Of a DNA stretch of 29,173 bases, positions 2,611 through 19,526 are shown in pieces. The stretch comes from a virus. The notes under the pieces are model-generated. The model had not been told where the DNA came from and ran no database searches. It saw nothing but the letters and a program-made list of their open reading frames with translations. A program made the position numbers and the translations under genes. The stretch's first letter is position 1. Each line of letters begins with the position of its first letter. The stretch spans positions 1 through 29,173 of IMG/VR virus record IMGVR_UViG_3300044491_000854, one strand, 5' to 3'.

Positions 2611-3378
2611 TTATTCGTCAGTTTCTTTCAAATGATATTCTATAATATCCTCTAGAGGAGGTTTTGTTTCTGCTCCTCGTACAGCCCAGGACTCTAAATT
2701 ATCAATGTTCGTAGCAAGAATATCTTCAATGTTTGCTTTATAGCCAATCTGTGCCACCATAATAGGCATTTCTTTAATGTAAGGCAAAGCACTCCAATCT
2801 ATACCAGAACCTTTGTTGGTGTCTTTACGATACTCATCTTTTCTGTCATCGCTAAACCTTATCCAGTTCCATTCTGGGAATGATCTTATATAACTAATCT
2901 GTAAGTCATTTTCTAAACACTGGCTAGCAAGTACCTTTAAAAACATGCCAACTTCAACACAGGCAAGTTTAGTATTAGTAGGTCCACGAAATCGTTCATC
3001 TAGTTGTGTAAATCTTTTTTCTCCGTCTTTGTATTTCTCTCCGTGTCTTACTACAAAATTATTTGGTTCACACTTTCGCAATTCGAATATCAGCACCCAA
3101 GGTGCTTTGTGATTTGGATGAGGGGCTTCTTCCATCTGCCATTGATTTACTGATCCGTTTTTAAACAAAGCACAAATTTTGCCTACTGTGTGAATATCTT
3201 TGTTATTGTTAGGACCAATAATATGAATCTTAAATGGAAATAAATTTTGCTTAGAAGGAGCCACATCAAAAGTTGTTTCAATAAGACTGTGGATAAGTTC
3301 CTTACTAGGAATACGTTCTTGATCCCAGGCCCATCTTATTTGTCTGCGTTTTTTAAAAAGTTCGTATATTTTTGACAC
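2611..3378 (-). CDS. Nitroreductase-like flavoprotein (copy A)
   Basis: The 255-residue product begins with KKRRQIRWAW (9-18) and follows with APSKQNLFPFKIHIIG (40-55). These correspond to the RRSxR and APSxxNxQPW segments that bind FMN phosphate and isoalloxazine in nitroreductase-type flavoproteins. A later EVGM segment leads into an amphipathic helix like the family's core dimer helix. The start is GTG (3378-3376), supported by AAGGA six bases upstream; no earlier in-frame ATG fits. It lies 20 bases after the DegT aminotransferase gene and one base before the radical SAM gene. A diverged relative is encoded at 4469-5161, on the other side of the aminotransferase. The family reduces nitro groups, quinones or flavins, or performs dehydrogenation or dehalogenation. 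No substrate can be named, and the similarity is remote enough that catalytic activity is uncertain. Confidence 0.65.
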   Translation of the reverse strand: MSKIYELFKKRRQIRWAWDQERIPSKELIHSLIETTFDVAPSKQNLFPFKIHIIGPNNNKDIHTVGKICALFKNGSVNQWQMEEAPHPNHKAPWVLIFELRKCEPNNFVVRHGEKYKDGEKRFTQLDERFRGPTNTKLACVEVGMFLKVLASQCLENDLQISYIRSFPEWNWIRFSDDRKDEYRKDTNKGSGIDWSALPYIKEMPIMVAQIGYKANIEDILATNIDNLESWAVRGAETKPPLEDIIEYHLKETDE

Positions 3379-3398: not shown

Positions 3399-4472
3399 CT
3401 ATAAAGCATTTTTTACATTGTTAATAATACTTATTACTTCATCCTCAGTAAGCCAAGCATGAATGGGCAACGACAAAACAGTATCAGATGCCGTCTTAGA
3501 CTGCGTACAAGCGTCACTCCTGCACTCTAAGTTGGCATACATACTATTTGCACTTAACGGTGTTTCGTAGTGTATACTGGCACTTAGAGCAGTTTTTACA
3601 CGTTTCCTTGTGTCTTTGTCTTTGAAACGGACTACATATTTGTGGTAGTTATGGTTAAGCCCATTTGACATTGTTTGTGTTACCACAGGTAAATCACTAA
3701 ATGCTGTATTGTATTCTTGTGCTATTTGTTGTCTGCGTTCTTGATTACGTTCAGCATGTCTTAATCTTAAATTAATAATTTCTGCATTCAACACATACAT
3801 ACGACTGTTATATCCTAGTATACTAAAGTCTTTGTCTTTGCCATGGCGTCTAATCATTTTTACACGACGAGCAATATCTTCGTTGTCTGTTAATACAACT
3901 CCTCCACCATTGATGCCAGCAATAACTTTGTTGCTATTGAAACTGTATACTGAACAGTCTCCAATAGTACCTGCCTTTATATTATGTAAACTACTACCCA
4001 AACTTTGTGCGGCATCTTCAATAAACAATATATCTTTGTCTTTACAAAATTGTTGTATCTCTGTAGTATCAGTCATGTTACCAAATAGATGTGGATAAAT
4101 TATTGCTTTTACTTTATCACTGTACATACGTTTAACACTATCTAAACTAATGTGATATGAATCTAAATCAATGTCACAGAACACAGGAACAGCGCCTACC
4201 ATACTAGCACAAGCTGAACTTGAAATCCAACTAAAATCTGTTACTAGCACTTCGTCGCCTAGACCAATGTTGTGTGCTAGTAGTGTAAAATGAAGAGCGT
4301 CTGTAGCACTTGCTACACTAACACAATGTTTACGCCCAACACGTTCAGCAAAACTACTTTCAAAGTCCTCATTATTTTCATAATTTGTTTGACTCATGAA
4401 ACGATCAAACACTTCTAAATAGTCTTGTTTGTTTTCTTGATATTCTCTATCCCAAGCATCATATGCTGTCAT
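3399..4472 (-). CDS. DegT/DnrJ/EryC1-family PLP-dependent sugar aminotransferase
   Basis: This 357-residue protein is a fold-type I aminotransferase of the family that transfers an amino group from glutamate or glutamine to keto-sugars bound to a nucleotide. Visible motifs are the cofactor phosphate region SVASATDALH (52-61), EDAAQSLGS (152-160; D153 pairs with the pyridine nitrogen), the Schiff-base lysine K182 in SFNSNKVIAGINGGG (177-191), RRHG (208-211), and YNSRMYVLNA (221-230), equivalent to the family's YNxRM motif. The catalytic residues all appear present. The ATG overlaps the stop of the upstream nitroreductase-like gene as ATGA. No nucleotide-sugar dehydratase or nucleotidyltransferase is visible in the window, so the keto-sugar substrate must come from the host or from genes elsewhere. 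An internal aldimine role without transamination (dehydrase type) is unlikely because the active-site lysine is present. Confidence 0.93.
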   Translation of the reverse strand: MTAYDAWDREYQENKQDYLEVFDRFMSQTNYENNEDFESSFAERVGRKHCVSVASATDALHFTLLAHNIGLGDEVLVTDFSWISSSACASMVGAVPVFCDIDLDSYHISLDSVKRMYSDKVKAIIYPHLFGNMTDTTEIQQFCKDKDILFIEDAAQSLGSSLHNIKAGTIGDCSVYSFNSNKVIAGINGGGVVLTDNEDIARRVKMIRRHGKDKDFSILGYNSRMYVLNAEIINLRLRHAERNQERRQQIAQEYNTAFSDLPVVTQTMSNGLNHNYHKYVVRFKDKDTRKRVKTALSASIHYETPLSANSMYANLECRSDACTQSKTASDTVLSLPIHAWLTEDEVISIINNVKNAL

Positions 4473-5161
4473 GCTGTGTTCCTTTGACTATTATCAACAA
4501 AATTAAAAATATCCTCAAATGGAGCATCAGTATCGGTTTTTAATCTTTCTGGATGGTAAAACTGCCATTTATATTTTTCAGCTTTTCCAATAGTTTGTAT
4601 AAGGTCAGGGTAAAAATCTATGTAGGGGAAATCTTTCCAGTCTTCCATATTTCTAGGAAGACAAACTGTATACGAAGAATCCCATCCTCTGTCTAATACA
4701 GCACCGGTTACTGTTTTAGCAAGCATACCAACTTCTATGGCATTAGAAGGTCTATTACGTGTATCAATAAATGTTGGATCTTCTAATTGCCATTTTGATT
4801 TTTCTCTTTCAAAGTTTTCTTTATGAAAAGGGTTTGGTGGTGCTATTCTAGGAGTGTATATAATAGTGTAAGGAGCACTTAATATATGATAAAGTCCGGG
4901 GTTAGATGTATAGGCTTCGTCACTGTCGCCAAATTCTTCTTCGTCAGTTCGAATTTTGTTACCTTCGCACATATTCCAAAGTTTTCTGCTTCTTGCCTTA
5001 TTAGGTCCTAGTATATGTGCTTTGTATGCATATGCTTTTTGTTTAGATGTAACAAGAGGATATGCGGTTTGCAGTATTTCAAAAATTTCAGCTTCTGTAG
5101 GTATTACATCTTCACAGTATTTCCATACATGGGCTCTGCGTGAAAGAGAATCTTCAATCAT
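4469..5161 (-). CDS. Diverged nitroreductase-like protein (copy B)
   Basis: I chose the ATG at 5161-5159 (230 residues). It lies four bases after the stop of the radical SAM gene, has GGAG eight bases upstream, and aligns with the start of copy A. A start at 5218 would overlap the upstream gene by 53 bases. Similarity to copy A (2611-3378) runs the full length: SRRAHVWKY (7-15) against RRQIRWAW, TSKQKAYAYKAHILGP (38-53) against SKQNLFPFKIHIIGP, a shared EVGM-x2-K segment, a shared PYI segment near the C-terminus, and APFEDIFNF against PPLEDIIEY. The flavin-binding positions are less like the canonical family than in copy A. A reasonable inference is a heterodimer with copy A in which one subunit has lost part of the FMN site. 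Its stop overlaps the aminotransferase start. Confidence 0.5.
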   Translation of the reverse strand: MIEDSLSRRAHVWKYCEDVIPTEAEIFEILQTAYPLVTSKQKAYAYKAHILGPNKARSRKLWNMCEGNKIRTDEEEFGDSDEAYTSNPGLYHILSAPYTIIYTPRIAPPNPFHKENFEREKSKWQLEDPTFIDTRNRPSNAIEVGMLAKTVTGAVLDRGWDSSYTVCLPRNMEDWKDFPYIDFYPDLIQTIGKAEKYKWQFYHPERLKTDTDAPFEDIFNFVDNSQRNTA

Positions 5162-5165
5162 AATA

Positions 5166-5891
5166 TTAACTCCATGGTGCCTGACGCCAGTTTTCAAGTT
5201 CTTTTGACATATGCCCAATCCATTCTTTTTTAACCCGATCTTGCAAATGTTTTTTATCTGGAGATGTAAGTTTAAAATCTACATTCTTTCTTAACAATGG
5301 ATTATCAGGATTAAATCCTCTATTTGTGTTTACAAATAATAGAGCAAAGTTTTCCTCTTTAGCAATTTCTATAGCACGGTCAACTTCGTGTTCGTTGTAA
5401 CCAAATATAATATACTGCCAAACAATTACATTTCCAAGGTCTCTGCCTAGTTTCATCATTTCCCAGACATTTTCAAAGTTTGATCCGATTCTATAAAGTT
5501 CGCTTTTTTCATCAATGCCGTCTACACCAAAGTACCAAGCGTTTGTGCTTTTGCCGTAACTATATGCTTGTTTCCACCAATCTAAAGATTGTCCACTTCC
5601 GTTAGTAGCAATACGTACTTGCTTACCATCAGACATTTCTAAAAATTTTAAAAAATTAGGATGATATATAGGGTCGGAAATTTGTCCGCAAAATGTAATA
5701 CCTTTATAATAATCTAATATTTTTTGAAAGTTTTTTTCTTCTAGATCAAAAGATCTACGTATTTGATCTTGACTAGATATTTTTTGACGAATACACTGTG
5801 GGCATTTCAAAATACATCGATGCGAAATGTCTAGGTTAGGCCTAGCCCACACCTGTTGTTCTACGTAATTATTAGTAATTCTTTCCGACAC
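5166..5891 (-). CDS. Radical SAM core protein lacking its own auxiliary-cluster domain
   Basis: The 241-residue product has C26-x3-C30-x2-C33 (CILKCPQC), a GGEP-equivalent segment TFCGQISDPIYHP (66-78), RIATNGSG (93-100), and a FGVDGID strand followed by YRIGS, all typical of radical SAM enzymes of the SPASM class. Beyond the core there are no C-terminal cysteines, so the auxiliary cluster domain is missing. The gene directly upstream encodes just such a domain as a separate 119-residue protein, suggesting the two work as a complex. The start is GTG (5891-5889), inside the upstream gene with a 20-base overlap; no other ATG or GTG precedes the cysteine motif and the ribosome site is weak, so translation by re-initiation is likely. 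The substrate is unknown; SPASM-class partners often modify peptides or sugars. Confidence 0.85.
   Translation of the reverse strand: MSERITNNYVEQQVWARPNLDISHRCILKCPQCIRQKISSQDQIRRSFDLEEKNFQKILDYYKGITFCGQISDPIYHPNFLKFLEMSDGKQVRIATNGSGQSLDWWKQAYSYGKSTNAWYFGVDGIDEKSELYRIGSNFENVWEMMKLGRDLGNVIVWQYIIFGYNEHEVDRAIEIAKEENFALLFVNTNRGFNPDNPLLRKNVDFKLTSPDKKHLQDRVKKEWIGHMSKELENWRQAPWS
5170..5173 (-). promoter_or_regulatory. Ribosome binding site (GGAG) deciding the start of copy B
   Basis: GGAG lies eight bases before the ATG at 5161-5159 and overlaps the stop region of the upstream radical SAM gene. No equally good site precedes the longer start at 5218, which is why the shorter form is preferred for the nitroreductase-like copy B. 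Confidence 0.6.
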
Positions 5892-6231
5892 GTTGTTTTA
5901 CACTCTCTAATTTTTCTTCTATTTTACGAATATCATGCTCATCTTCTGTAAGTTCAATACCACACTTTTTCTTACACATATACGAACATTCATCTGGAGC
6001 ATTGTAAAGTTTTTGAAAAAAGTTTTCCCATTGATCACTTGTAAAGATATCTTCTAATTTTTCATTATTTGCTAAAGCAAGTTCTGGGTCTTTTAATCCT
6101 GCCTTAATAATATGATTTAATACAGGAGGATCATCCATCCAGCAACAAGGTAGCATAAAGCCGTCACTAGTGTAAGCGGCTCCTTTTTGATCTCTTTCAC
6201 CAAATGCTAAACACTTTGGCCTAATTTTCAT
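5872..6231 (-). CDS. Stand-alone SPASM-like iron-sulfur domain protein
   Basis: This 119-residue protein has cysteines at C7, C29, C30, C82, C86 and C90. The contexts PKCLAF, a strand with GFMLPCCW (24-31), and LEDIFTSDQW (59-68) followed by C-x3-C-x3-C are those of the SPASM domain normally fused to the C-terminus of radical SAM enzymes, where it binds auxiliary [4Fe-4S] clusters. Here it is a separate gene and lies upstream of the radical SAM core gene, so it is not the frameshifted tail of that gene. The C-terminal 25 residues are a charged helix, possibly for docking. The ATG has a strong ribosome site (GGAGGAATTAA before ATG) and overlaps the previous gene by 11 bases. The assignment rests on cysteine spacing and flanking residues seen by eye. 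Confidence 0.7.
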   Translation of the reverse strand: MKIRPKCLAFGERDQKGAAYTSDGFMLPCCWMDDPPVLNHIIKAGLKDPELALANNEKLEDIFTSDQWENFFQKLYNAPDECSYMCKKKCGIELTEDEHDIRKIEEKLESVKQRVGKNY

Positions 6232-7078
6232 TTAATTCCTCCACTACTTTTACAATAGGTGTTATATCTGGTTCTTTACAATCACGCCTCCAATATACAC
6301 TACCACCATCTACAATCTTTTTATCTCTTAGGTAAATTATATCTTTACCGTAATACTTACACTCTTGAAAAATTCTTGGAGCAGGATCAAATGTTTCTTT
6401 GGTATACACGTAAGTCTCAAACAAGCTCATAAGATTTTCTACTGGTACAAATATATTATTATTCTTTATATTAACATACTTTTCGTCATATGTCAAGACC
6501 CCGTGGTCTGGATAATTACTAATAACTTTTTCAACACTAGCATAGTATTCTGGGTTTGTGGCTAAAAACAAGTGTTTAAACTGTATGTTATCTTTATGTG
6601 GTTTGTATATGCTAAAATTAATAGTTTTTTCGAAATGTGCTCCAATACCGTTGGGGTAAACATCAGTATCACATAGGTCAATTACTTGTGTTGGATTGTA
6701 AAACTCTAGTGCTTTAGGATACTCAGCAGGATGATTCTCTGAATAAACACTGATCACTTTGCCGCCAAATAGTCTTCGCAAGTTCTTTTGTTGTAACTCG
6801 CTATAGTCATTAAAACTTTGCCAGCTTAGAGTCATCATACTTCTGCCCATAATCAATGTTACGTCATCATCACTTGGTAGATAGTTGTCTATGTACACAT
6901 GATCGTATGTAGTATATTTTGCTTTGATAGTATCAATGTATGCTAGTTGGTTAAATTTTCTGTGTGTAATGATAATAACCTGAGCAGGATATCCTGCTTT
7001 GTTAAGCATATCACAGTATTCATAACTGTAATATAATAATCCGTCAACTGGTTTGCTTGTTACAACAATGTTAATCAT
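6221..7078 (-). CDS. Putative GT-B-type glycosyltransferase
   Basis: The 285-residue product opens with a Rossmann-type strand and helix (MINIVVTSKP, then YSYEYCDMLNKAGY at about 17-30), like the N-terminal half of GT-B glycosyltransferases. Near the C-terminus FDPAPRIFQECKYYGK (230-245) resembles the nucleotide-sugar-binding helix region in which proline, arginine and glutamate precede a helix and a G-K turn. It is shorter than most GT-B enzymes (usually 350 or more residues), so it may be a minimal or diverged member. The ATG lies two bases after the SGNH hydrolase stop. Context among other glycosyltransferase-like genes supports the call, but no single motif is decisive. Confidence 0.45.
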   Translation of the reverse strand: MINIVVTSKPVDGLLYYSYEYCDMLNKAGYPAQVIIITHRKFNQLAYIDTIKAKYTTYDHVYIDNYLPSDDDVTLIMGRSMMTLSWQSFNDYSELQQKNLRRLFGGKVISVYSENHPAEYPKALEFYNPTQVIDLCDTDVYPNGIGAHFEKTINFSIYKPHKDNIQFKHLFLATNPEYYASVEKVISNYPDHGVLTYDEKYVNIKNNNIFVPVENLMSLFETYVYTKETFDPAPRIFQECKYYGKDIIYLRDKKIVDGGSVYWRRDCKEPDITPIVKVVEELNEN

Positions 7079-7080
7079 AG

Positions 7081-7734
7081 CTAATTTGTTTCCTTTACAT
7101 ATTTTAACATATCTCTAGCAATTAACTTTTGCGATTCTGGTCCAGGATGATCATTATCAGCTGCAAAATCAACCCAATGTAAAGACTGATTAATTAGATT
7201 TACTTTATTCCATTTAGGATATACATATTCAATATCAGTCTTGTTAGGGCCTAACTTTGAATTAAAATTAGCTTTAAAATTATACACATGACGATGTTCT
7301 TGTAGGGTATAGTTTGCTAAATTTACAGCTTCTAATGATTCAAGAAAACTATTATACGGATCATGAATCCATTTATAATAGTTTTTACACACATTGTTAT
7401 TTTTTGTAGGGTGTATATTCGTTGCTACTTTTGCTAGTTCTATACTCTTAGATGTAAATACTGTTGACCTGTTGACCTCTGTCCATAATATAACTATAAT
7501 GTCGTCTTTTTCTATAGTAGTGTTTAATATTTGCTGAGATATGTATCTGTTACTACACCCAGGGCGTCCTAAATTCACAACTTTTTTATCTAACATTTTT
7601 CCTAGCAATGCTGGCCAAGCATACTGACTAGGCTTATCTGCCATTACTAGGCCATTTGGTCCTTGCCTGTTAAGACAATCTATTTGTCCTTCACCATAGG
7701 TATGACTGCATCCAAAAGCAAATAATCTACTCAT
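7081..7734 (-). CDS. SGNH/GDSL-type hydrolase-like protein
   Basis: The 217-residue protein has the four blocks of the SGNH superfamily: FGCSHTYGEG (7-16; nucleophile S10, with Cys in place of the usual Asp of GDS), NLGRPGCSN (54-62; block II Gly), ILWTEVNR (82-89; Asn of block III), and ADNDHPGPES (192-201; D193 and H196 of the block V DxxH). These enzymes cleave or transfer acyl esters, often O-acetyl groups on polysaccharides. There is no signal peptide, so a cytoplasmic or virion role is expected. The ATG has GAGGA nearby and overlaps the upstream gene by 8 bases. It sits between two glycosyltransferase-like genes, so an O-acyl-sugar substrate is a fair guess. Relatives with this GCSHT motif are common in bacterial polysaccharide and phage clusters. 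Confidence 0.75.
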   Translation of the reverse strand: MSRLFAFGCSHTYGEGQIDCLNRQGPNGLVMADKPSQYAWPALLGKMLDKKVVNLGRPGCSNRYISQQILNTTIEKDDIIVILWTEVNRSTVFTSKSIELAKVATNIHPTKNNNVCKNYYKWIHDPYNSFLESLEAVNLANYTLQEHRHVYNFKANFNSKLGPNKTDIEYVYPKWNKVNLINQSLHWVDFAADNDHPGPESQKLIARDMLKYVKETN

Positions 7735-8404
7735 TAAATTGTTCCTCTAGCCATTCAAAGTTATTTATTAGGTTAAGATCAGAGCTGTTAGAAAGGCCAA
7801 ACTGCATGCCAGCATTAGCACCTCGTAACGCATCTCGTCTATAACTTCCAGTAGCATAAGTAGTCCAAGTTTTAAGTCTATCATTAGTTTCCTCCTCATC
7901 TTGTCTGTTTATTGTTTTGCTTGCTAATTTAGCACATTCTCTAAAAGCACTACGCCAAGTACTAAAAGCATCTGTATCAAATGCTGTAATATTACTAACT
8001 TCGTTTATTACTTTAAATTTATCACTAATACTTGTAGTCATATCTGTAGTAGTTGTGTCCATATTAAGTGTAAGTGTTGTAGGCAACAATTTTACACCGC
8101 CATAACCATATGTTAAATCGTTGATAGGATTCTTACTATAGTAAACGTGTACTATATCTCTTTCCTCTGCTGTATGAGCAAATTTGAAGTCTTGCACGAC
8201 CTTTGCGTCACCGTCTACAACATAGAAGTAACTAGTATTTGCTATCTTAGCCGCTTCAACATGAGCATTGTGTATGCCTTCAACATCTTTAATACGTTTA
8301 ACTCTATCACCAAATACACCAACTGTATTAAACCTATCATAAAGGTCATTAAAATTTTCTTCGGCGTTTGCCTCGTGATAACTTATAAAGATAATATCAT
8401 ACAT
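7727..8404 (-). CDS. GT-A-like glycosyltransferase family protein (pair member 1)
   Basis: I start this at the ATG at 8404-8402 (225 residues), which overlaps the radical SAM stop by 8 bases, rather than at the in-frame TTG at 8419. The product begins with a strand and the motif DIIFISYHEANAEENF (3-18), followed by a YVVDGDA segment (61-67) that looks like the DxD metal and nucleotide-sugar site of GT-A enzymes. Further shared blocks are INDLTYGYGGVKLLP and FSTWRSAFRECAKLA. The same blocks occur in the product of 9764-10657, so the two are paralogs placed on either side of the twitch radical SAM gene. This copy is about 70 residues shorter, ending without the C-terminal extension. The stop is TAG. 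The sugar donor and acceptor are not known. Confidence 0.55.
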   Translation of the reverse strand: MYDIIFISYHEANAEENFNDLYDRFNTVGVFGDRVKRIKDVEGIHNAHVEAAKIANTSYFYVVDGDAKVVQDFKFAHTAEERDIVHVYYSKNPINDLTYGYGGVKLLPTTLTLNMDTTTTDMTTSISDKFKVINEVSNITAFDTDAFSTWRSAFRECAKLASKTINRQDEEETNDRLKTWTTYATGSYRRDALRGANAGMQFGLSNSSDLNLINNFEWLEEQFNE

Positions 8405-9767
8405 TTTTAATAATCTCAAAAAACCCTTCGTATTCAGGAAATGTATTTAAGAAATTTGTATCACGTCTGCGATCGTACTGAAGAATAAACTTAAAAAACA
8501 TATGCTGTGCTTCTTGCTGTTCTTTCCAAAACTTATCCTTATTTTCAAATCTATATTCTACATCTTTTACAATACGCTGTAACTTAGCAGTTTCAATAGT
8601 TTTAAATCCTTTAGGGTCAGTATTTTCTTCCATAAATTTTAATGCCGGTTTCAAATAATCATCAACTAACTGTTGATTGGCTATCTTTACGTCTAAGAAA
8701 GCAGGATTTCTCACATAAGGAATATCAATTAGAATACGTTGGTTCCATCTGTTTTCTCCGTGATATGCCGCTTTTAAATATAGAACCCAAATTAAAAAAT
8801 CTTTAAATGTAGGAAGACTAAAAATATTAAACGCACTCATAAAACTAATTTTACTTTTAGTGTTGCGAACAAAATGTTCTATATTATCTTGAAATTGCTT
8901 CCAGTCCATACCAAATCTACTGTACTCTGCTTGCGGTCCAATGCTTTCGGCACTAGTATACAATGTAAATTCTTTAATACTTTTTGTGTCTTCAAGCGTC
9001 TTAATCAACTGAGTGAACTCTTCCCATATGCCAGCAGGTGGACAACCATTAGTATTGATAGCAAACTGAAGTTGCGGTTGAGGATTGTCTATTAAATATT
9101 GAATTACCTTTTTTGTATGTTTACTTAATAAGGGTTCTCCTCCAGTGATGCGAAATGTCTGCATGTGCTTAACTGCTTCAGGAAACCACTTCCAAAATGC
9201 TTCAATATAAGGATTGTGTTCTCTTTCTGGAATTGGAGATTCGTCTGGATTGATCATATTGTAAGACCAAGTCTTTAAGTCATATGGTCCTTTTTGTTTA
9301 ACTTCTTCTGTCCATTTGCTACTAAATGCTGGTCCGCAATAACTACACTTGAAGTTGCACACATTACCAAAACTTATTTCAACATATCTCGGATAAAAGT
9401 CCTGATCGCTCGAAGAATTTTTAATAGTTTCGTAGTCTGGCCAACTAAATTCTTCTGCGCTTTTATAAACTCTATCACTGAAATTATCTGTATTATCTTC
9501 AATACGCCAGCAATAGTCACACTCTCCTGGGCGTTCACCATTTAACATTTGTCTACGGGTTTCTTTTTTAAATCCCGTGTTATGTAGTGCGTTTGGATTA
9601 TTTTTTAGTTCTTCTAAATCAATTTTATGTGCTTTAACGTGATGGCAACTGTGATTAATACCACTGCCTAAATGAATAGTAACTTGTGTCCATTTAGCAA
9701 GGCAAAACCCACATCCAACACTGTCTAGCTTGTCTTTTACAATAATAGGATCTTCTGGGTTTTTCAT
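8397..9767 (-). CDS. Radical SAM enzyme with N-terminal twitch-type domain
   Basis: This 456-residue protein has an N-terminal cysteine-rich region with C19, C22, C41, C83 and C86 (GCGFC, SCHH, ECDYCW), then the radical SAM motif C137-x3-C141-x2-C144 followed by GP (NVCNFKCSYCGP), and RITGGEPLL (206-214). That order, with the auxiliary-cluster twitch part ahead of the SAM core, is the reverse of usual SPASM enzymes and matches the known N-terminal-twitch radical SAM family found in phages and polysaccharide clusters, whose reaction is not established. The ATG overlaps the stop of the upstream glycosyltransferase-like gene as ATGA, with AAGGA about 11 bases upstream. The two flanking genes are paralogs of each other, which suggests the three products act together. 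Confidence 0.88.
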   Translation of the reverse strand: MKNPEDPIIVKDKLDSVGCGFCLAKWTQVTIHLGSGINHSCHHVKAHKIDLEELKNNPNALHNTGFKKETRRQMLNGERPGECDYCWRIEDNTDNFSDRVYKSAEEFSWPDYETIKNSSSDQDFYPRYVEISFGNVCNFKCSYCGPAFSSKWTEEVKQKGPYDLKTWSYNMINPDESPIPEREHNPYIEAFWKWFPEAVKHMQTFRITGGEPLLSKHTKKVIQYLIDNPQPQLQFAINTNGCPPAGIWEEFTQLIKTLEDTKSIKEFTLYTSAESIGPQAEYSRFGMDWKQFQDNIEHFVRNTKSKISFMSAFNIFSLPTFKDFLIWVLYLKAAYHGENRWNQRILIDIPYVRNPAFLDVKIANQQLVDDYLKPALKFMEENTDPKGFKTIETAKLQRIVKDVEYRFENKDKFWKEQQEAQHMFFKFILQYDRRRDTNFLNTFPEYEGFFEIIKNV

Positions 9768-10657
9768 CTTATTTGAGGTCCTTGATAAACAGTTTTAAAG
9801 AATTCACTTTGTTCATGAGTAAATGGTTGTATGGCAATTGGGCATTCTAGTTCATTAATTAATCGAGAGCCATTTATAAAAATTTCGTCTACTAACACTT
9901 CCGGTGGCATTTCGTCCCTTCCAGCCCAAAGATCTTTTAGTTCATTAAAATCTCTTACTTTAATATAGTCCCAATCGTCTAGCATTGTTGCTACTAATCC
10001 TTCACGTGCTCCGAGTATAGCCCAGTCTCCGTTACTTACATCAGAGCCTACCATCATCCATACATATAACATGTGTAAATTTTTATAATGATTCTTTGTA
10101 AAAAAGTCTTCTTTAGAAATGCGTTCGCCTCTATCTAATGCTAGTTTTACGCCTTCTCTAAATCCTGCTCTCCAGGCTTGATAAGGTGTTGCGTTATTGT
10201 GTGTTGTACTAAATGTATCTCTTACTTGTATATATTGAGCATCCCAACAGAAGTCTACCTGAGCATGAGGATTGTCTGGACTTGCGTTTTCATGTGTACG
10301 CATATTCAACACATATTCTTTAGGCCAACATTTAAGTCCGCCGTTGCCATATCGAAGTCCGTTAATAACATTGTTGCCACACCAACTAATTACACACTTT
10401 GTTAAGTCTTGTGTATCGTCAAGATCAATTACTTGATTTAAAAAATTTTGATCTATAATATTGTCGCCATCAACTGTAATAAAGCGATCTGTTTCACTTA
10501 ATTCAGCGCAGGCTTTGTGTGCGGCATCTGAACCATCAACTCCGTGTACACGTTTTGCCCATGGCACTTTACTTAATAAGTCAGCATAATTTTCTTCAGC
10601 ATTTGGTTCATCGTAACTTAGATAAATTATATCCTGTTCTGCTATTTTTAATTTCAT
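9764..10657 (-). CDS. GT-A-like glycosyltransferase family protein (pair member 2)
   Basis: The 297-residue product has DIIYLSYDEPNAEENY (9-24), RFITVDGDNI (58-67; DxD-like D63 and D65), INGLRYGNGGLKCWP and YQAWRAGFREGVKLA, each matching a block in the 225-residue product of 7727-8404. The carboxyl-terminal part holds a long extra segment with a short Trp- and Asp-rich helix pattern (WDYIKVRDFNELKDLW). GT-A enzymes use such an acidic pair to bind Mn or Mg and the nucleotide-sugar. The ATG follows AAGGA by about 7 bases and shares one base with the upstream stop (TAATG). Function as a glycosyltransferase is inferred from fold-like motifs and context; no donor can be named. Confidence 0.55.
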   Translation of the reverse strand: MKLKIAEQDIIYLSYDEPNAEENYADLLSKVPWAKRVHGVDGSDAAHKACAELSETDRFITVDGDNIIDQNFLNQVIDLDDTQDLTKCVISWCGNNVINGLRYGNGGLKCWPKEYVLNMRTHENASPDNPHAQVDFCWDAQYIQVRDTFSTTHNNATPYQAWRAGFREGVKLALDRGERISKEDFFTKNHYKNLHMLYVWMMVGSDVSNGDWAILGAREGLVATMLDDWDYIKVRDFNELKDLWAGRDEMPPEVLVDEIFINGSRLINELECPIAIQPFTHEQSEFFKTVYQGPQIR

Positions 10658-14087: not shown

Positions 14088-14095
14088 TACTTATA
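14088..14095 (-). promoter_or_regulatory. Weak late-promoter-like box (TATAAGTA)
   Basis: TATAAGTA differs from TATAAATA by one base and lies 16 bases upstream of the ATG of the 305-residue virion gene, overlapping the stop of the preceding fibre gene. The position resembles the other boxes in this region, but the mismatch makes it uncertain. Confidence 0.2.
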
Positions 14096-15575
14096 CTTTA
14101 AGTACGCACTCGACTAACTTTTCTGACTCGTTGTCATTACTTTCAAGGGCAATACCTACTAATCCTGTTGTAGAAATTGTTGAACATACGCCGTCTTCCC
14201 AAGCATAAACTGCTTGTCCTTTTTTAACAGCACCTTTTACTCTTACAGGAACACGACCTTTAAGACCAATTGCTTGACCGTCTGCTTCGCTATTCATTAA
14301 GTATGCTGGCTCTGCTGATATAACACCGATTGCCATACAACTTGATTTACATGCTGTAGTTTCGGCTTCGCCGCCTACACACATTGCTGTTCCTACTGGA
14401 TACTCTTGATCTGTTGTGTATTTTTCTGCTAAGTCAGCATATCTTGCACTTGTTGATATACCGTTAAATACATTAGCAGATAAATTACCACTAGCATCTC
14501 GAACTGCTACTGTATTATTTGTTGGATTAACATCACCTGTTCTATAATTTGATCCAACTTGTAAGTTAATAGCGTTAGTCGCTAAACCGTTAAACGAAGT
14601 AGCATATATATTTCTAAATTTAAAAGTACTAGTACCAATGTCATATGTTGCTGTTGATGTTGGAATTAACCCAACAGCTGAAACGTGGAATGGTTCAGTT
14701 GTTACTCCGCCTGCTGACTTAACTTTAAATCTAATCTTTTTACCAACTGTGTTTTCGATAACTAGTTCATCACCTGTGTTAGCTGGATCGATATAAATCT
14801 TACCGTCGTTTGCCGCACCGACTGTTAGTCCAGTATCGCTGAATCTTACAATATCACCAAATGAACTTTCTTGTCCTGGTGTGTTTTGTACAAAGTTTGT
14901 TGCAAGTACGCCGCCTAATGCGTCAGCATTAGATGCTGTACCGTGGAATCTATGTGCTGTCGAAGTTACACCGTTTGTTCCAGATGTTGTATTCCTTAAT
15001 GTAATACCTTGTCTAACTACATCGTATCCTGTAATTACGTTAGCAGGATCTGTTTGATCAATAGTAAACTCACTAGCACTAATAATAAACACAACTGCGT
15101 CATCAACTGTACCTTTAATAATTGTTCTATTATTCTGAGATGTATCTCTTACTTGGGCAGTAACCATTGCTGATACAGTTTCGCCAATAGATTGTGGACC
15201 AATTAGGACAAATCCACCATCTGCGTTTTGTGCGTATAACTGATTATTTCCGGTATCCCACCAAAAATCACCAGTAGTTAAACCTACTGGTTGTGTGCCA
15301 CTTACTTCAGCACCGCCTGTTGTTCTAAATTTTGTTCCGTCGTAAAACTTTAGTTTTTTTACCGAGCTATCAAACCAAATCTGTCCTGATAAAGGATTAG
15401 CTGGTGAATTGCCACTGGAAAAACTTTCCATCAAATGTACAAAGTTTTCGTTTTGGATTTCACCATAACCAGCATAATTTTTACCTACTAGCTTAATAGT
15501 AGTGCTTTGGTCAATGGTGCCATCTTCAACTGTGGTTAACTGTTGTCCATTTGTTAAATTGATTACATATGCCAT
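14091..15575 (-). CDS. Tail fibre protein with shared N-terminal module and Cys-containing C-terminal domain
   Basis: The 494-residue product begins with the module shared by three adjacent fibre genes: MAYVINLTNGQQL, a ENFVHLMESF helix, and SGQIWFDSSVKKLKFYDG (63-80), followed by a second GDFWWDTGNNQLY repeat. The middle is a long beta-rich shaft with the sequence ATYDIGTSTFKFRNIYA and a SGNLSANVFNG segment. The C-terminal 116 residues start with YADLAEKYTTDQ (379-390) and carry five cysteines (C399, C409, C413, C464, C490) and the KGRVPVRVKG segment (439-448). Similar YADLAE-headed ends occur on fibres of marine T4-like phages and may be an autoproteolytic or receptor-binding head. There are no cysteines elsewhere in the protein. 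The ribosome site AGGGG precedes the ATG by 7 bases and a perfect late box lies 26 bases upstream. Confidence 0.82.
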   Translation of the reverse strand: MAYVINLTNGQQLTTVEDGTIDQSTTIKLVGKNYAGYGEIQNENFVHLMESFSSGNSPANPLSGQIWFDSSVKKLKFYDGTKFRTTGGAEVSGTQPVGLTTGDFWWDTGNNQLYAQNADGGFVLIGPQSIGETVSAMVTAQVRDTSQNNRTIIKGTVDDAVVFIISASEFTIDQTDPANVITGYDVVRQGITLRNTTSGTNGVTSTAHRFHGTASNADALGGVLATNFVQNTPGQESSFGDIVRFSDTGLTVGAANDGKIYIDPANTGDELVIENTVGKKIRFKVKSAGGVTTEPFHVSAVGLIPTSTATYDIGTSTFKFRNIYATSFNGLATNAINLQVGSNYRTGDVNPTNNTVAVRDASGNLSANVFNGISTSARYADLAEKYTTDQEYPVGTAMCVGGEAETTACKSSCMAIGVISAEPAYLMNSEADGQAIGLKGRVPVRVKGAVKKGQAVYAWEDGVCSTISTTGLVGIALESNDNESEKLVECVLKV

Positions 15576-15601
15576 TTATAAACCCCTAATTGTGTTATAT
15601 G

Positions 15602-15609
15602 TATTTATA
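15602..15609 (-). promoter_or_regulatory. T4-type late promoter box (TATAAATA)
   Basis: A perfect TATAAATA on the minus strand lies 26 bases upstream of the fibre gene that starts at 15575. The TAA stop codon of the preceding fibre gene is embedded in the box. T4-like phages use this element with the gp55 sigma factor for late transcription; T4 late promoters need no -35 box. Confidence 0.65.
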
Positions 15610-17443
15610 CTAAACTGCCCGGAGTCAAGTCTTCAACATATACCCATGCTCCCGCAGTAATCCTAAATAGTTTAAGTGTTCTTGTTACTGTTGATGTAAT
15701 AGAACCTGTTGCGTCATTAAATACAGCACTTTGAATAACACTAATTGACCCGTCATCATTTCCACCGTTATCTAATTGCTGAACTAATGTTGTACTTTCA
15801 TTAAATGCTAAGTCTAGTGAAGCACCTGTTAATGTAGCAGTAGCACCTGTAGTTGTTGTACAGTGTACTCTTGCTTCTGTTCCGTCTTGCTTAATACTAA
15901 CTGGAGCAATATCATTTAAAATAGTAGCAATATTTGTATGCTGTTGTGTACTTCCTGCTGTTCCTAGTCCAGTAACATCTAATGCTAACGCAATTACTTC
16001 TAAATTAATTTGACTATCAACATAATTTTTTGTAGCAACATCTTGTGCTGACGATGGATCTGAAACATTTGTAATACGCTGTGTTGTAGTAAGTGATACT
16101 GGTCCAGCAACATCAAATGTTAATCCGTTTCCACTTAAATCAGTTGACGATGATTGTAATCTTACTCCACTAAACGAAATGTTACCAATATTAGCCGATG
16201 TAAGCGCACCGATACTTGTAATACCTGGAGCACTTGTGCCGCTAATAATGTCTACGCCGTTTGCTTTGATTTTTGTTCCTGGTAATAAATTAATACTTTG
16301 ATTGGTTGTCCACGACTGTGTAGCTGTTCTCCATAACCATTCTTTATCGCCTCCGGAACTTTGTACAATTATTCCTGCTTCGTCAACTTGTGTATCATTT
16401 AAAACTGTACTATCACTTGATTTGGCAAGTATAATACTCTTATCTTCAATATTTAATTCTGTAACGTCGATACTAATTGTATCACCGCTTACTATTAAGT
16501 TGCCACCTACACGCACATCTCCGCCTACATCTAATGTATAAGCGGGACTGTCATTGTATATTCCTATTCTACTATCTCGAGCTTTAACACTAATAGCATT
16601 TTGAATACCACCTGATGTACGAACTTGTAATGTATAGTTTTGATTTGAAACTTCGTTAAGTGCTATAACTCCTGCGCTTGTTACTTTGATAACATGGTTA
16701 TCACCTAACCCAACAGTAAGACCGTTGTTATTTCTTACAGCAAGTGAACCACTAGTAGCATCATCCGAGTCACTAGCAAGAAACTGTGCCGCTGTTCTTG
16801 ACACATTATTACTATCAACTAGTGCCGATGTCCTTAAAGCTGTGCCAGCGAAAATAAAGTCTTGGTCAACAACGTTAAATCCCTTAACAACATTACCTGA
16901 AAAGTTAGGAATTGTGTCTACGTTTTGCGGTGTAAATGAAACTTTACTCCATAACCCTACAAGTGTGCCGCCTACCCAATATTTTACAATAGTTCTACTA
17001 GTACCTGTTTGATCAAGTACTGTAATTACTTCAGGACCAGAACGTCCCTGGAACGCATTGTAAATCGGTCCTGCTAATTCTAAGTCTGTGCCGTCAAAGA
17101 AATAAAGTTGATTACTATCATTATTAATCCATAAATCTCCAGCAACCATAACAGGCTGCTGTGGTCCGACAATTGGTCCGCCACCTGTTGTCCAATTAGC
17201 ACCAGTATAAACTTTTAAACGTGATACACTAGTATCCCACCATATTTGTCCAGCAAGCGGTGTCGGAGGAGCAGAAGAACTAGCAAAGTTTTCAAGCATT
17301 TTAACAAAGTTTTCGTTAATTGCTTCGCCGAATCCAGAATACCCTCTACCAACAAGGGTTAAATCTGACGATGTAGAATCTATCTGTCCGTCTGCAAGGT
17401 TAACAAGTAACGCCCCGTTAGTCTTATTAATTTGATATGCCAT
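15605..17443 (-). CDS. Tail fibre protein with shared N-terminal module (612 residues)
   Basis: I start at the ATG at 17443-17441, one base after the stop of the preceding fibre gene, instead of a TTG four codons earlier; it then aligns with MAY at the start of the two sister fibres. The module reads MAYQINKTNGALL, ENFVKMLENFASSSAP (44-59), AGQIWWDTSVSRLKVYTG and GDLWINNDSNQLYFFDG. Further on are a LDVGGDVRVGGNLIVSGD shaft motif, a DVATKNYVDSQ segment that is a common trimer-forming element of phage fibres, and a beta-rich C-terminus ending in WVYVEDLTPGSLV. There is no chaperone or protease domain. It is one of three tandem fibre genes, probably arisen by duplication of the head module. The receptor-binding part is most likely the C-terminus. 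Confidence 0.82.
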   Translation of the reverse strand: MAYQINKTNGALLVNLADGQIDSTSSDLTLVGRGYSGFGEAINENFVKMLENFASSSAPPTPLAGQIWWDTSVSRLKVYTGANWTTGGGPIVGPQQPVMVAGDLWINNDSNQLYFFDGTDLELAGPIYNAFQGRSGPEVITVLDQTGTSRTIVKYWVGGTLVGLWSKVSFTPQNVDTIPNFSGNVVKGFNVVDQDFIFAGTALRTSALVDSNNVSRTAAQFLASDSDDATSGSLAVRNNNGLTVGLGDNHVIKVTSAGVIALNEVSNQNYTLQVRTSGGIQNAISVKARDSRIGIYNDSPAYTLDVGGDVRVGGNLIVSGDTISIDVTELNIEDKSIILAKSSDSTVLNDTQVDEAGIIVQSSGGDKEWLWRTATQSWTTNQSINLLPGTKIKANGVDIISGTSAPGITSIGALTSANIGNISFSGVRLQSSSTDLSGNGLTFDVAGPVSLTTTQRITNVSDPSSAQDVATKNYVDSQINLEVIALALDVTGLGTAGSTQQHTNIATILNDIAPVSIKQDGTEARVHCTTTTGATATLTGASLDLAFNESTTLVQQLDNGGNDDGSISVIQSAVFNDATGSITSTVTRTLKLFRITAGAWVYVEDLTPGSLV

Positions 17444-17444
17444 C

Positions 17445-19526
17445 TTAGCCCCCAACTCCTGTGTAAATAATATATTTGACTGTTAAGAACGGATTCATAA
17501 CATTAAATGGTGTGCCTAGTTCAGTAACATCGAATGTTTCATACTCTTCAAGTCCTGTGTTTGCATTATAAGTAATGTTTCTTCTGTTTAGAACACCGCC
17601 TGATGAAGTTCTTGCTTGTCCTGCTCCTGAGCCTGTAGGAGCATCATATGGAATAGTATCAGCATCCTGTTGTACGCCACTATCATCAAGTATTACATAA
17701 AACTGTGCACCTTTTGGAGATCTTAAATCATGCTCGTGTTCTGGTAAGTTTTTAACATCAATAGATCTGCTTTCAACACCTGAACCAAGGCCAACTATAT
17801 CAGCGTTAACGTCTGAAACTCTGTTAGCACTTGTACCTCCCATATTATCAGCACCTAGGGCAAATCTACCTCTAAAGTCAGGAAGTCCAAAATTACCCGA
17901 TGTAACTTGGCTTTGGTCTTTGAACTGATATAAAATTGTGTTATACAAAGTAAGATAATCTGAAATTTTAACTTCTGATCCGTCGCATAATAACCAACCA
18001 CCCGGTACTGATTGTCCGCCATATGGTACAATAGTTCCTACAGGAATAACTGGAACACTACTAACTAGTGCTTGTTGTGATATTTTAAATACTCCAGTGT
18101 CATCGCCCGAAATTCTGTTGATAATAATTTCATCATCTCTATTAGGTGATGTAACTGATTGTTTACCAGCAATGAATGTATTACTAATAGACGTATTAAA
18201 TGTCTTAGCAGTGCCGCCAACTTGTCCGTCAAATGTAATTTGGTTTGAACTAACATCTCCTGTTAATTCAAAAGTTGTTGCTGATGTTAACTTATTAGCA
18301 TTAGTGGCGCCGCCTGTAACTGTACCTGTAATATTACCAATTAAGTTTCCTCTGAACTCAACAGCATGTACAGCTGACCATCTTTTTGTTGTTGATCCTA
18401 ATGAATGACTTTGTGTAGCTAGTGGTAAAATACTTGCTGTTGTACTTTCACCTGCTACATTTAAATTTGTACCTACAAATAGTTTTTTAGCAATGCCAAC
18501 ACCGCCGCTAATTTTAACTGCTCCTGTGCCGATACTTGCGCTATCTGTTGTACCTTGTATAATTAAATTTTCGCTCGATTGTATTGAGCCTTGAACATCT
18601 AACGCTTCAGCAGGACTTAATGTATTAATACCAACTTTTTCTGTTGAGTCGATTCTAATAACATTTTTCTGTACACCTAAGTTATTAACTTTAAAATCAA
18701 TCGGTGCTCCTGATGTTAAGTTAGTAATGACGCCTGATGTACCTTGTACATCAAATGTTACAGTAGCAGTTTGTCCTACTTGTAAACCTTTGTTATTACT
18801 AATAATAAGTTGTTCGTTTGATGTACTTGTGACATCGTTTCTTAAAAATTTACTTGCGTCAACTTTTACACCGTTAACTACAAGATTTTCTGCTTTTTCA
18901 CTTGTACCTAAAAATCTTCCAATGCCGTCGCCACTAATATTTAGACTCGATAAGTTAAATCCTGGTTGGATTATTGTAAATCCTGGAATAGTTGTTTTTG
19001 GCTGGAATGTCCTTGTACTATAAATTGCTAACGGAGATCCTGCTACTTCAACTTGTAGTATCGTGTAAAGTATATCATCTTTTCCTGTTACCACCGCAGG
19101 TTTAGCACCTGTAAGCAAGCCGTCACTATATTCAGGTCCGACTAGTGTCCAGCCACTACCTGTAAAAATATACAACTGATTATTATCTGTATCCGACCAA
19201 AGATCACCTTGTAAAGCATTTGCTACCTCAGGTGCTGTATTTCCTTTTTTAAGACCACTAGCATTAACCCATACTGTACCGTCATATAGTTTAAGTGTGT
19301 CAACTCCTGTTGAACTATCGTACCATAACTGTCCTTGAATTGGGTTTCTTGGAGCAGATGTACTAGCAAAATTTTCTAATTGTTTTAAAAAGTTTTCAGC
19401 AATAACTGACCCATAGCTAGTAGTGTTACGTCCAGGAATATCTAGACTTGTTTGTTGGTTAATTGTACTATCTTCGATTGATATAGTACCTTTGTTAGTG
19501 TCTGAGTAGTTAATTGTATATGCCAT
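17445..19526 (-). CDS. Tail fibre protein with shared N-terminal module and phage tail-collar domain
   Basis: The 693-residue product starts with MAYTINYSDTNKGTIS, then ENFLKQLENFASTSAP, QGQLWYDSS, LKLYDG and GDLWSDTDNNQLYIF, the same module as in the two fibre genes that follow. A shaft includes LDVQGSIQSSENLIIQGT and RWSAVHAVEFRGNLIGNITG. Residues from about 493 form a phage tail-collar domain: IPVGTIVPYGGQSVPGGWLL, CDGSE, FGLPDFRGRFALG and ENxEHxH-like KNLPEHEHD, then MNPFLTVKYIIYTG at the end. The tail-collar domain often ends fibre proteins and may bind a partner fibre or receptor. The ATG shares one base with the preceding stop (TAATG). Of the three fibres this is the most likely to be the principal one, by its length and domain end. 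Confidence 0.88.
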   Translation of the reverse strand: MAYTINYSDTNKGTISIEDSTINQQTSLDIPGRNTTSYGSVIAENFLKQLENFASTSAPRNPIQGQLWYDSSTGVDTLKLYDGTVWVNASGLKKGNTAPEVANALQGDLWSDTDNNQLYIFTGSGWTLVGPEYSDGLLTGAKPAVVTGKDDILYTILQVEVAGSPLAIYSTRTFQPKTTIPGFTIIQPGFNLSSLNISGDGIGRFLGTSEKAENLVVNGVKVDASKFLRNDVTSTSNEQLIISNNKGLQVGQTATVTFDVQGTSGVITNLTSGAPIDFKVNNLGVQKNVIRIDSTEKVGINTLSPAEALDVQGSIQSSENLIIQGTTDSASIGTGAVKISGGVGIAKKLFVGTNLNVAGESTTASILPLATQSHSLGSTTKRWSAVHAVEFRGNLIGNITGTVTGGATNANKLTSATTFELTGDVSSNQITFDGQVGGTAKTFNTSISNTFIAGKQSVTSPNRDDEIIINRISGDDTGVFKISQQALVSSVPVIPVGTIVPYGGQSVPGGWLLCDGSEVKISDYLTLYNTILYQFKDQSQVTSGNFGLPDFRGRFALGADNMGGTSANRVSDVNADIVGLGSGVESRSIDVKNLPEHEHDLRSPKGAQFYVILDDSGVQQDADTIPYDAPTGSGAGQARTSSGGVLNRRNITYNANTGLEEYETFDVTELGTPFNVMNPFLTVKYIIYTGVGG

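Follow-up and report, generated by a model that had tools for sequence, protein, structure and literature searches.

A radical SAM core protein and a twitch-type auxiliary-cluster protein encoded by separate, adjacent genes in marine phages

Known enzymes with auxiliary-cluster domains and the gene pair of the window

The SPASM/twitch auxiliary domain of radical SAM enzymes is normally fused behind the core in the same chain, and in twitch enzymes such as BtrN its cluster has been proposed to take up an electron from the substrate or to hold the substrate in place. The enzymes BtrN, BlsE and DesII, which act on sugar-type substrates, follow this one-chain plan, as do the SPASM peptide maturases SuiB, SkfB, anSME and PqqE, typically with a two-cluster SPASM domain. 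The GGEP motif on the second strand is common in radical SAM enzymes, without being universal or defining by itself. The roles of the auxiliary clusters have been called elusive or enigmatic (PMC9012708, PMC10470005; the definitions of twitch and SPASM used here are taken from the same papers), and they are debated partly because the domain normally lies within the enzyme's own chain. An earlier paper noted as many as 12 radical SAM genes in marine T4-like phages (PMC5332604). Our search of the open-access literature, with most subscription journals outside it, turned up neither a split SPASM/twitch enzyme nor a stand-alone SPASM protein.

The window, the whole 29,173-nucleotide stretch of marine phage DNA that was analysed (IMG/VR record IMGVR_UViG_3300044491_000854), encodes on the minus strand a radical SAM core protein of 241 residues without an auxiliary domain of its own (5166–5891, GTG start) and, upstream of it, a detached SPASM/twitch-type auxiliary-cluster protein of 119 residues (5872–6231, ATG start). 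Separate genes with the SPASM gene upstream were what the initial annotation had described, and both open reading frames lie where it placed them. The two genes have 20 nt in common, read in different frames (5872–5891, minus strand), and the SPASM gene in turn shares 11 nt with the end of the gene before it (6221–7078); by reading of the sequence, a Shine-Dalgarno-like GGAGG stands before the SPASM gene (6238–6242, minus strand). These overlaps are suggestive of coupled translation. Comparison with one related locus, L079, gave a dN of ~0.22 and a dS of ~1.65 for the SPASM gene and ~0.26 and ~1.68 for the core gene, so that dN/dS is about 0.14–0.15 across both genes and purifying selection is similar on the two. 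Because dN is so much lower than dS for each gene and the pair recurs in every relative uncut by contig ends, the arrangement is not a product of chance. It represents a recurrent variant within a known enzyme class, undescribed as far as we have found, and is probably a radical SAM enzyme with its twitch domain as a separate subunit.

The core protein, the small protein and their fused homologues

The 241-residue core scores above the cut-off of the Radical_SAM family PF04055 (30.4 bits, cut-off 29.5), and its CX3CX2C motif (C26, C30, C33; 5793–5816, minus strand) is invariant in 60/60 close relatives. The initial annotation named these three cysteines correctly but overlooked a fourth, C68 (5688–5690, minus strand), which is likewise invariant in all 60; its statement that the core has no C-terminal cysteines holds for the part beyond C68, the last cysteine of the protein. 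This residue lies in the sequence F-C-G-Q-x-S-D-P, found at the position that GGEP occupies in most radical SAM enzymes; BtrN, BlsE and DesII likewise differ from the core in having GGEP in place of C-G-Q-x-S-D-P. Since C68 lies close to the SAM site, it may be a further ligand or a catalytic thiol. Against the twitch domain-containing family NF033640 (N_Twi_rSAM) the core scores 21.9 bits, below the cut-off of 170. The core ends at the point where its fused homologues run on into the auxiliary domain.

The small protein of the window scores 18.7 bits against the SPASM family PF13186, below the cut-off of 21.5, whereas its relatives in L149 (24.9 bits) and L079 (24.6 bits) exceed it, and 14/16 members of a diverse alignment of detached family proteins match the family at E-values up to 1. 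The next Pfam match, Molybdop_Fe4S4, is weak (14.9 bits) and is found in 2/16 members only; no zinc or other iron-sulfur family competes. A comparison with PDB sequences gave no meaningful match and thus no sequence relative with a solved structure. The cysteines of the small protein are arranged as C7-x21-C29-C30 and C82-x3-C86-x3-C90, as the initial annotation had read them, but the pattern is not conserved as a whole. Across 162–163 aligned domains C7 (6211–6213), P28, C29 and C30 (6142–6147, in the G-x4-CC motif), C86 and C90 occur without exception, the C86-x3-C90 pair (5962–5976; all codons on the minus strand) in 163/163 domains, whereas C82 is a cysteine in only 11/162. The PF13186-type pattern, C-x(n)-G-x4-C followed by a later C-x2-3-C pair, is present as C7...G24-x4-C29...C86-x3-C90, and the seven-cysteine motif of a full two-cluster SPASM domain is absent. 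Because only five cysteines are invariant and C82 is variable, the pattern fits one auxiliary cluster, as in a twitch domain, and not the two clusters of SPASM. The SPASM assignment made initially therefore stands as homology to the SPASM/twitch group, with the one-cluster twitch type the better fit.

The identity of the small protein is reinforced by fused homologues, 16 distinct sequences in which the same domain is placed behind the same core. One natural fusion (L145:2336–3253) was modelled from an 84-row alignment with a pLDDT of 86.6 and a pTM of 0.87. Residues 1–296 of the model superpose on SuiB with Z 19.3 (rmsd 3.3, 257 aligned), and the model superposes on BlsE with Z 19.1 (rmsd 3.5, 261 aligned), on DesII with Z 17.1 and on BtrN with Z 15.6 (rmsd 3.2, 220 aligned); MoaA, PqqE and anSME were also superposed. 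The fused homologue thus shares the core fold and the position of the auxiliary domain with BtrN, BlsE and DesII, and its overall architecture with SuiB, SkfB, anSME and PqqE. In all of these enzymes the auxiliary domain belongs to the same chain, whereas in the window an upstream gene of its own encodes it, and the five invariant cysteines of the family set it apart from the two-cluster maturases. Because the fused homologue superposes over its whole length on SPASM/twitch enzymes, the detached domain of the window corresponds to their C-terminal auxiliary domain. The homology of the small protein to the fused auxiliary domain, and hence its true kinship with SPASM/twitch, is near certain.

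The two window genes were also read through as one chain, joined via a single four-letter word (GTCG=V). The model of this artificial construct, the sole evidence on an interface of the pair, made with an unpaired alignment and without a negative control, reached a pTM of 0.82 and a pLDDT of 80.7, and the former value argues for a defined mutual position of the two domains in the predicted structure. Its core part matches SuiB (Z 13.0) and BlsE (Z 12.4); since the domain order is permuted, sequential aligners return mainly core matches when the model is compared with the PDB.

Gene order and pairing across relatives

Scans of IMG/VR yielded 48 loci with the small protein as query and 80 with the core, and in these the core and SPASM genes are adjacent at every locus left intact by the contig ends. 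A third scan with fused homologues as queries added 80 further loci. Architectures were determined by two rounds of profile search over all open reading frames, and distinct sequences were then counted because the IMG/VR contigs are partly redundant, although distinct sequences are still not independent events. Of the 148 distinct cores of the family that do not lie at contig ends, the SPASM gene comes first in 82, the core gene in 49, a SPASM gene lies on both sides in 1, and 16 are fused; unpaired cores number 0/148. Another 6 cores lie at contig or locus ends, outside the 148, and three more remote full-length cores (326–387 residues) have, by eye, similar cysteine motifs in their own C-terminal part. 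Conversely, 131/131 detached SPASM reading frames away from contig ends adjoin a core, with 2 more at contig ends. Two-protein encoding occurs in at least 100 distinct phage relatives and is the commonest state of the family, not a peculiarity of one phage. Two short MAG contigs are the only bacterial occurrences found.

A quick tree of 63 cores needs at least 6 changes to account for the three architectures, with the SPASM-first state requiring 2 and the fused state 4, and because of this splitting, fusing and reordering probably happened repeatedly. The spacing of the two genes varies as well: the overlaps measure -20, -19, -17, -11, -8, -4 or -1 nt, other loci have gaps between +5 and +13 nt, and both relative frames are represented. 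A distance of ~300 nt separates the genes in L092, L095, L099 and L123; the interval in L095 holds a 108-residue open reading frame (5678–6004) that appears MazG-like by eye. In L088 (5361–6001), L089 and L113–L116, two tandem SPASM genes precede a single core gene, which may reflect a stoichiometry other than 1:1 or the service of one copy to another partner.

A cultured phage, Pelagibacter phage Mosig EXVC030M, carries the core-first version in a similar gene cluster (QOI69048.1 and QOI69049.1). As in the window, a split core (211 residues) is accompanied by a split SPASM protein (112 residues, annotated as hypothetical); unlike in the window, the core gene comes first, and the Mosig core is 32% identical to that of the window. 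The small Mosig protein matches the family profile with an E-value of 9e-13, and the fused L145 query matches both adjacent Mosig genes in succession. A tblastn search of cultured phages with the small protein of the window gave no relative, and the Mosig copy was reached through the core and the profile. The neighbouring Mosig gene QOI69047.1 (L127, 5096–5962) is a homologue of the window gene at 6221–7078 (52% identity) without a radical SAM motif, and its annotation as a "molybdenum cofactor biosynthesis enzyme" looks wrong.

Functional interpretation and gene neighbourhood

The pair is, with good probability, one twitch-type radical SAM enzyme made of two subunits. A partnership of the core and the small protein in trans is likely, mainly because of their fixed neighbourhood, the gene overlaps and the existence of fused versions, while the tandem SPASM genes of some lineages caution against assuming a fixed 1:1 complex. 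The small protein would bind one [4Fe-4S] cluster through C7, C29, C86 and C90, with C30 as an extra ligand or an active-site thiol, and would dock on the open end of the partial barrel of the core, the site of the fused domain in homologues. The core would cleave SAM and then abstract a hydrogen from the substrate, and the auxiliary cluster, acting in trans, would accept an electron from the substrate or hold it. An enzyme type otherwise known as a single chain thus appears to work here as a two-part machine. Such a natural split between core and auxiliary domain would permit the cluster domain to be added, omitted, swapped or mutated in vitro, and a large, mostly unannotated family of marine phage proteins gains a clear partner.

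The neighbouring genes, all on the minus strand, include a NodU-type carbamoyltransferase (316–1779), another radical SAM gene (1776–2609), a DegT aminotransferase (3399–4472), two nitroreductase-like genes (2611–3378 and 4469–5218), the 285-residue gene directly upstream of the SPASM gene (6221–7078) and a twitch domain-containing radical SAM gene (8397–9767) that matches NF033640 with 312.8 bits (cut-off 170). The cluster also includes a weakly SGNH-like protein. Tail-fibre genes (14091–19526) and the gene for a 2954-residue virion protein lie upstream of the pair. To judge from the name of NF033640 and a reading of its cysteines, with the domains compared without mutual alignment, this family has its auxiliary domain before the core, which parallels the SPASM-first order of the window, although its protein is one chain and the window pair is two. 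The nitroreductase-like genes flank the DegT gene; one has a weak Pfam match, the other is its distant homologue, and it is possible that they are flavin electron donors for radical SAM enzymes. Two paralogues of an unknown family (7727–8419 and 9764–10657; ~28–30% identity via relatives) flank the twitch radical SAM gene.

Native fusions join the SPASM domain to other proteins in some relatives. It stands behind a homologue of the upstream 285-residue protein in L037–L039, L044–L047 and L080–L082, and ahead of a PHROG glycosyltransferase (phrog_1962, E 1.8e-13) in L206 (3627–4736); in L149 (3620–4525) it precedes a domain that looks similar by eye, 'YLDLDMVIYDKL'. The core gene remains a neighbour in these native fusions. 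A reading of the upstream 285-residue gene as a GT-B glycosyltransferase, based on the by-eye motif FDPAPRIxQECKYYGK, found no support from Pfam or PDB profiles.

Gene neighbours and fusions suggest a sugar or glycan as the substrate, the proposal being founded on the DegT aminotransferase, the carbamoyltransferase, the nitroreductase-like flavoproteins, the tail-fibre genes and the SPASM–glycosyltransferase fusion. Most likely, the two-subunit enzyme sits in a tail-adjacent sugar or decoration cluster, and the sugar or glycan substrate would serve to decorate the tail of the phage or the surface of the host. A bolder version, which we regard as possible yet rather doubtful, is that the twitch domain is an independent cluster-bearing cartridge serving both the core and glycosyltransferases, within a modular phage complex for the synthesis of a radical-modified sugar and its attachment. 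We know of no earlier case in which a SPASM/twitch domain was shown to act in trans, and this one, if borne out, would be the first.

The strongest competitor of the two-subunit enzyme, though an improbable one, is that the small protein works unattached, carrying electrons or shuttling clusters like a ferredoxin, and serves one radical SAM enzyme of the gene cluster or several. The additional radical SAM genes at 1776–2609 and 8397–9767 would provide recipients, tandem SPASM genes before one core would suit such a role, and there is a documented precedent for electrons passing from another molecule to a radical SAM enzyme (PMC10470005). However, in fused homologues the domain has its fixed, canonical place, each SPASM-less family core has its own neighbouring copy, and the domain matches SPASM and no ferredoxin family. 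It is still less probable that the detached domain no longer serves the core and instead tethers glycosyltransferase-like proteins to the pathway, in the role of scaffold or regulator. The native fusions to the upstream 285-residue protein and to the PHROG glycosyltransferase would be expected of such a tether, but five cysteines invariant in all aligned domains would be needless for it, and next to these fusions the core gene is retained.

Sactipeptide-type clusters usually pair a small cysteine-containing open reading frame with a radical SAM gene, and the layout of the window resembles them. That the small protein is a RiPP-like precursor and the substrate of the radical SAM enzyme is nevertheless very unlikely, since its conservation spans the whole domain with no variable core peptide, fused enzymes carry its homologue as their C-terminal domain, and in relatives the domain is also fused to other large proteins. 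A single polypeptide produced by programmed frameshifting, or split by a sequencing error, at the 20-nt overlap of two different frames is contradicted, and is the least credible reading by far, since overlaps vary in length and occur in both frames, the genes can be ~300 nt apart with a reading frame between them in L095, and the fused enzymes have the two parts in the opposite order; the initial annotation had already argued on the last ground that this is not a frameshift of one gene.

In Campylobacter phage F379 (L128, 189–7255), several radical SAM genes adjoin an inosamine-phosphate amidinotransferase and a nucleotide-sugar transferase, possibly forming another phage sugar-modification cluster.
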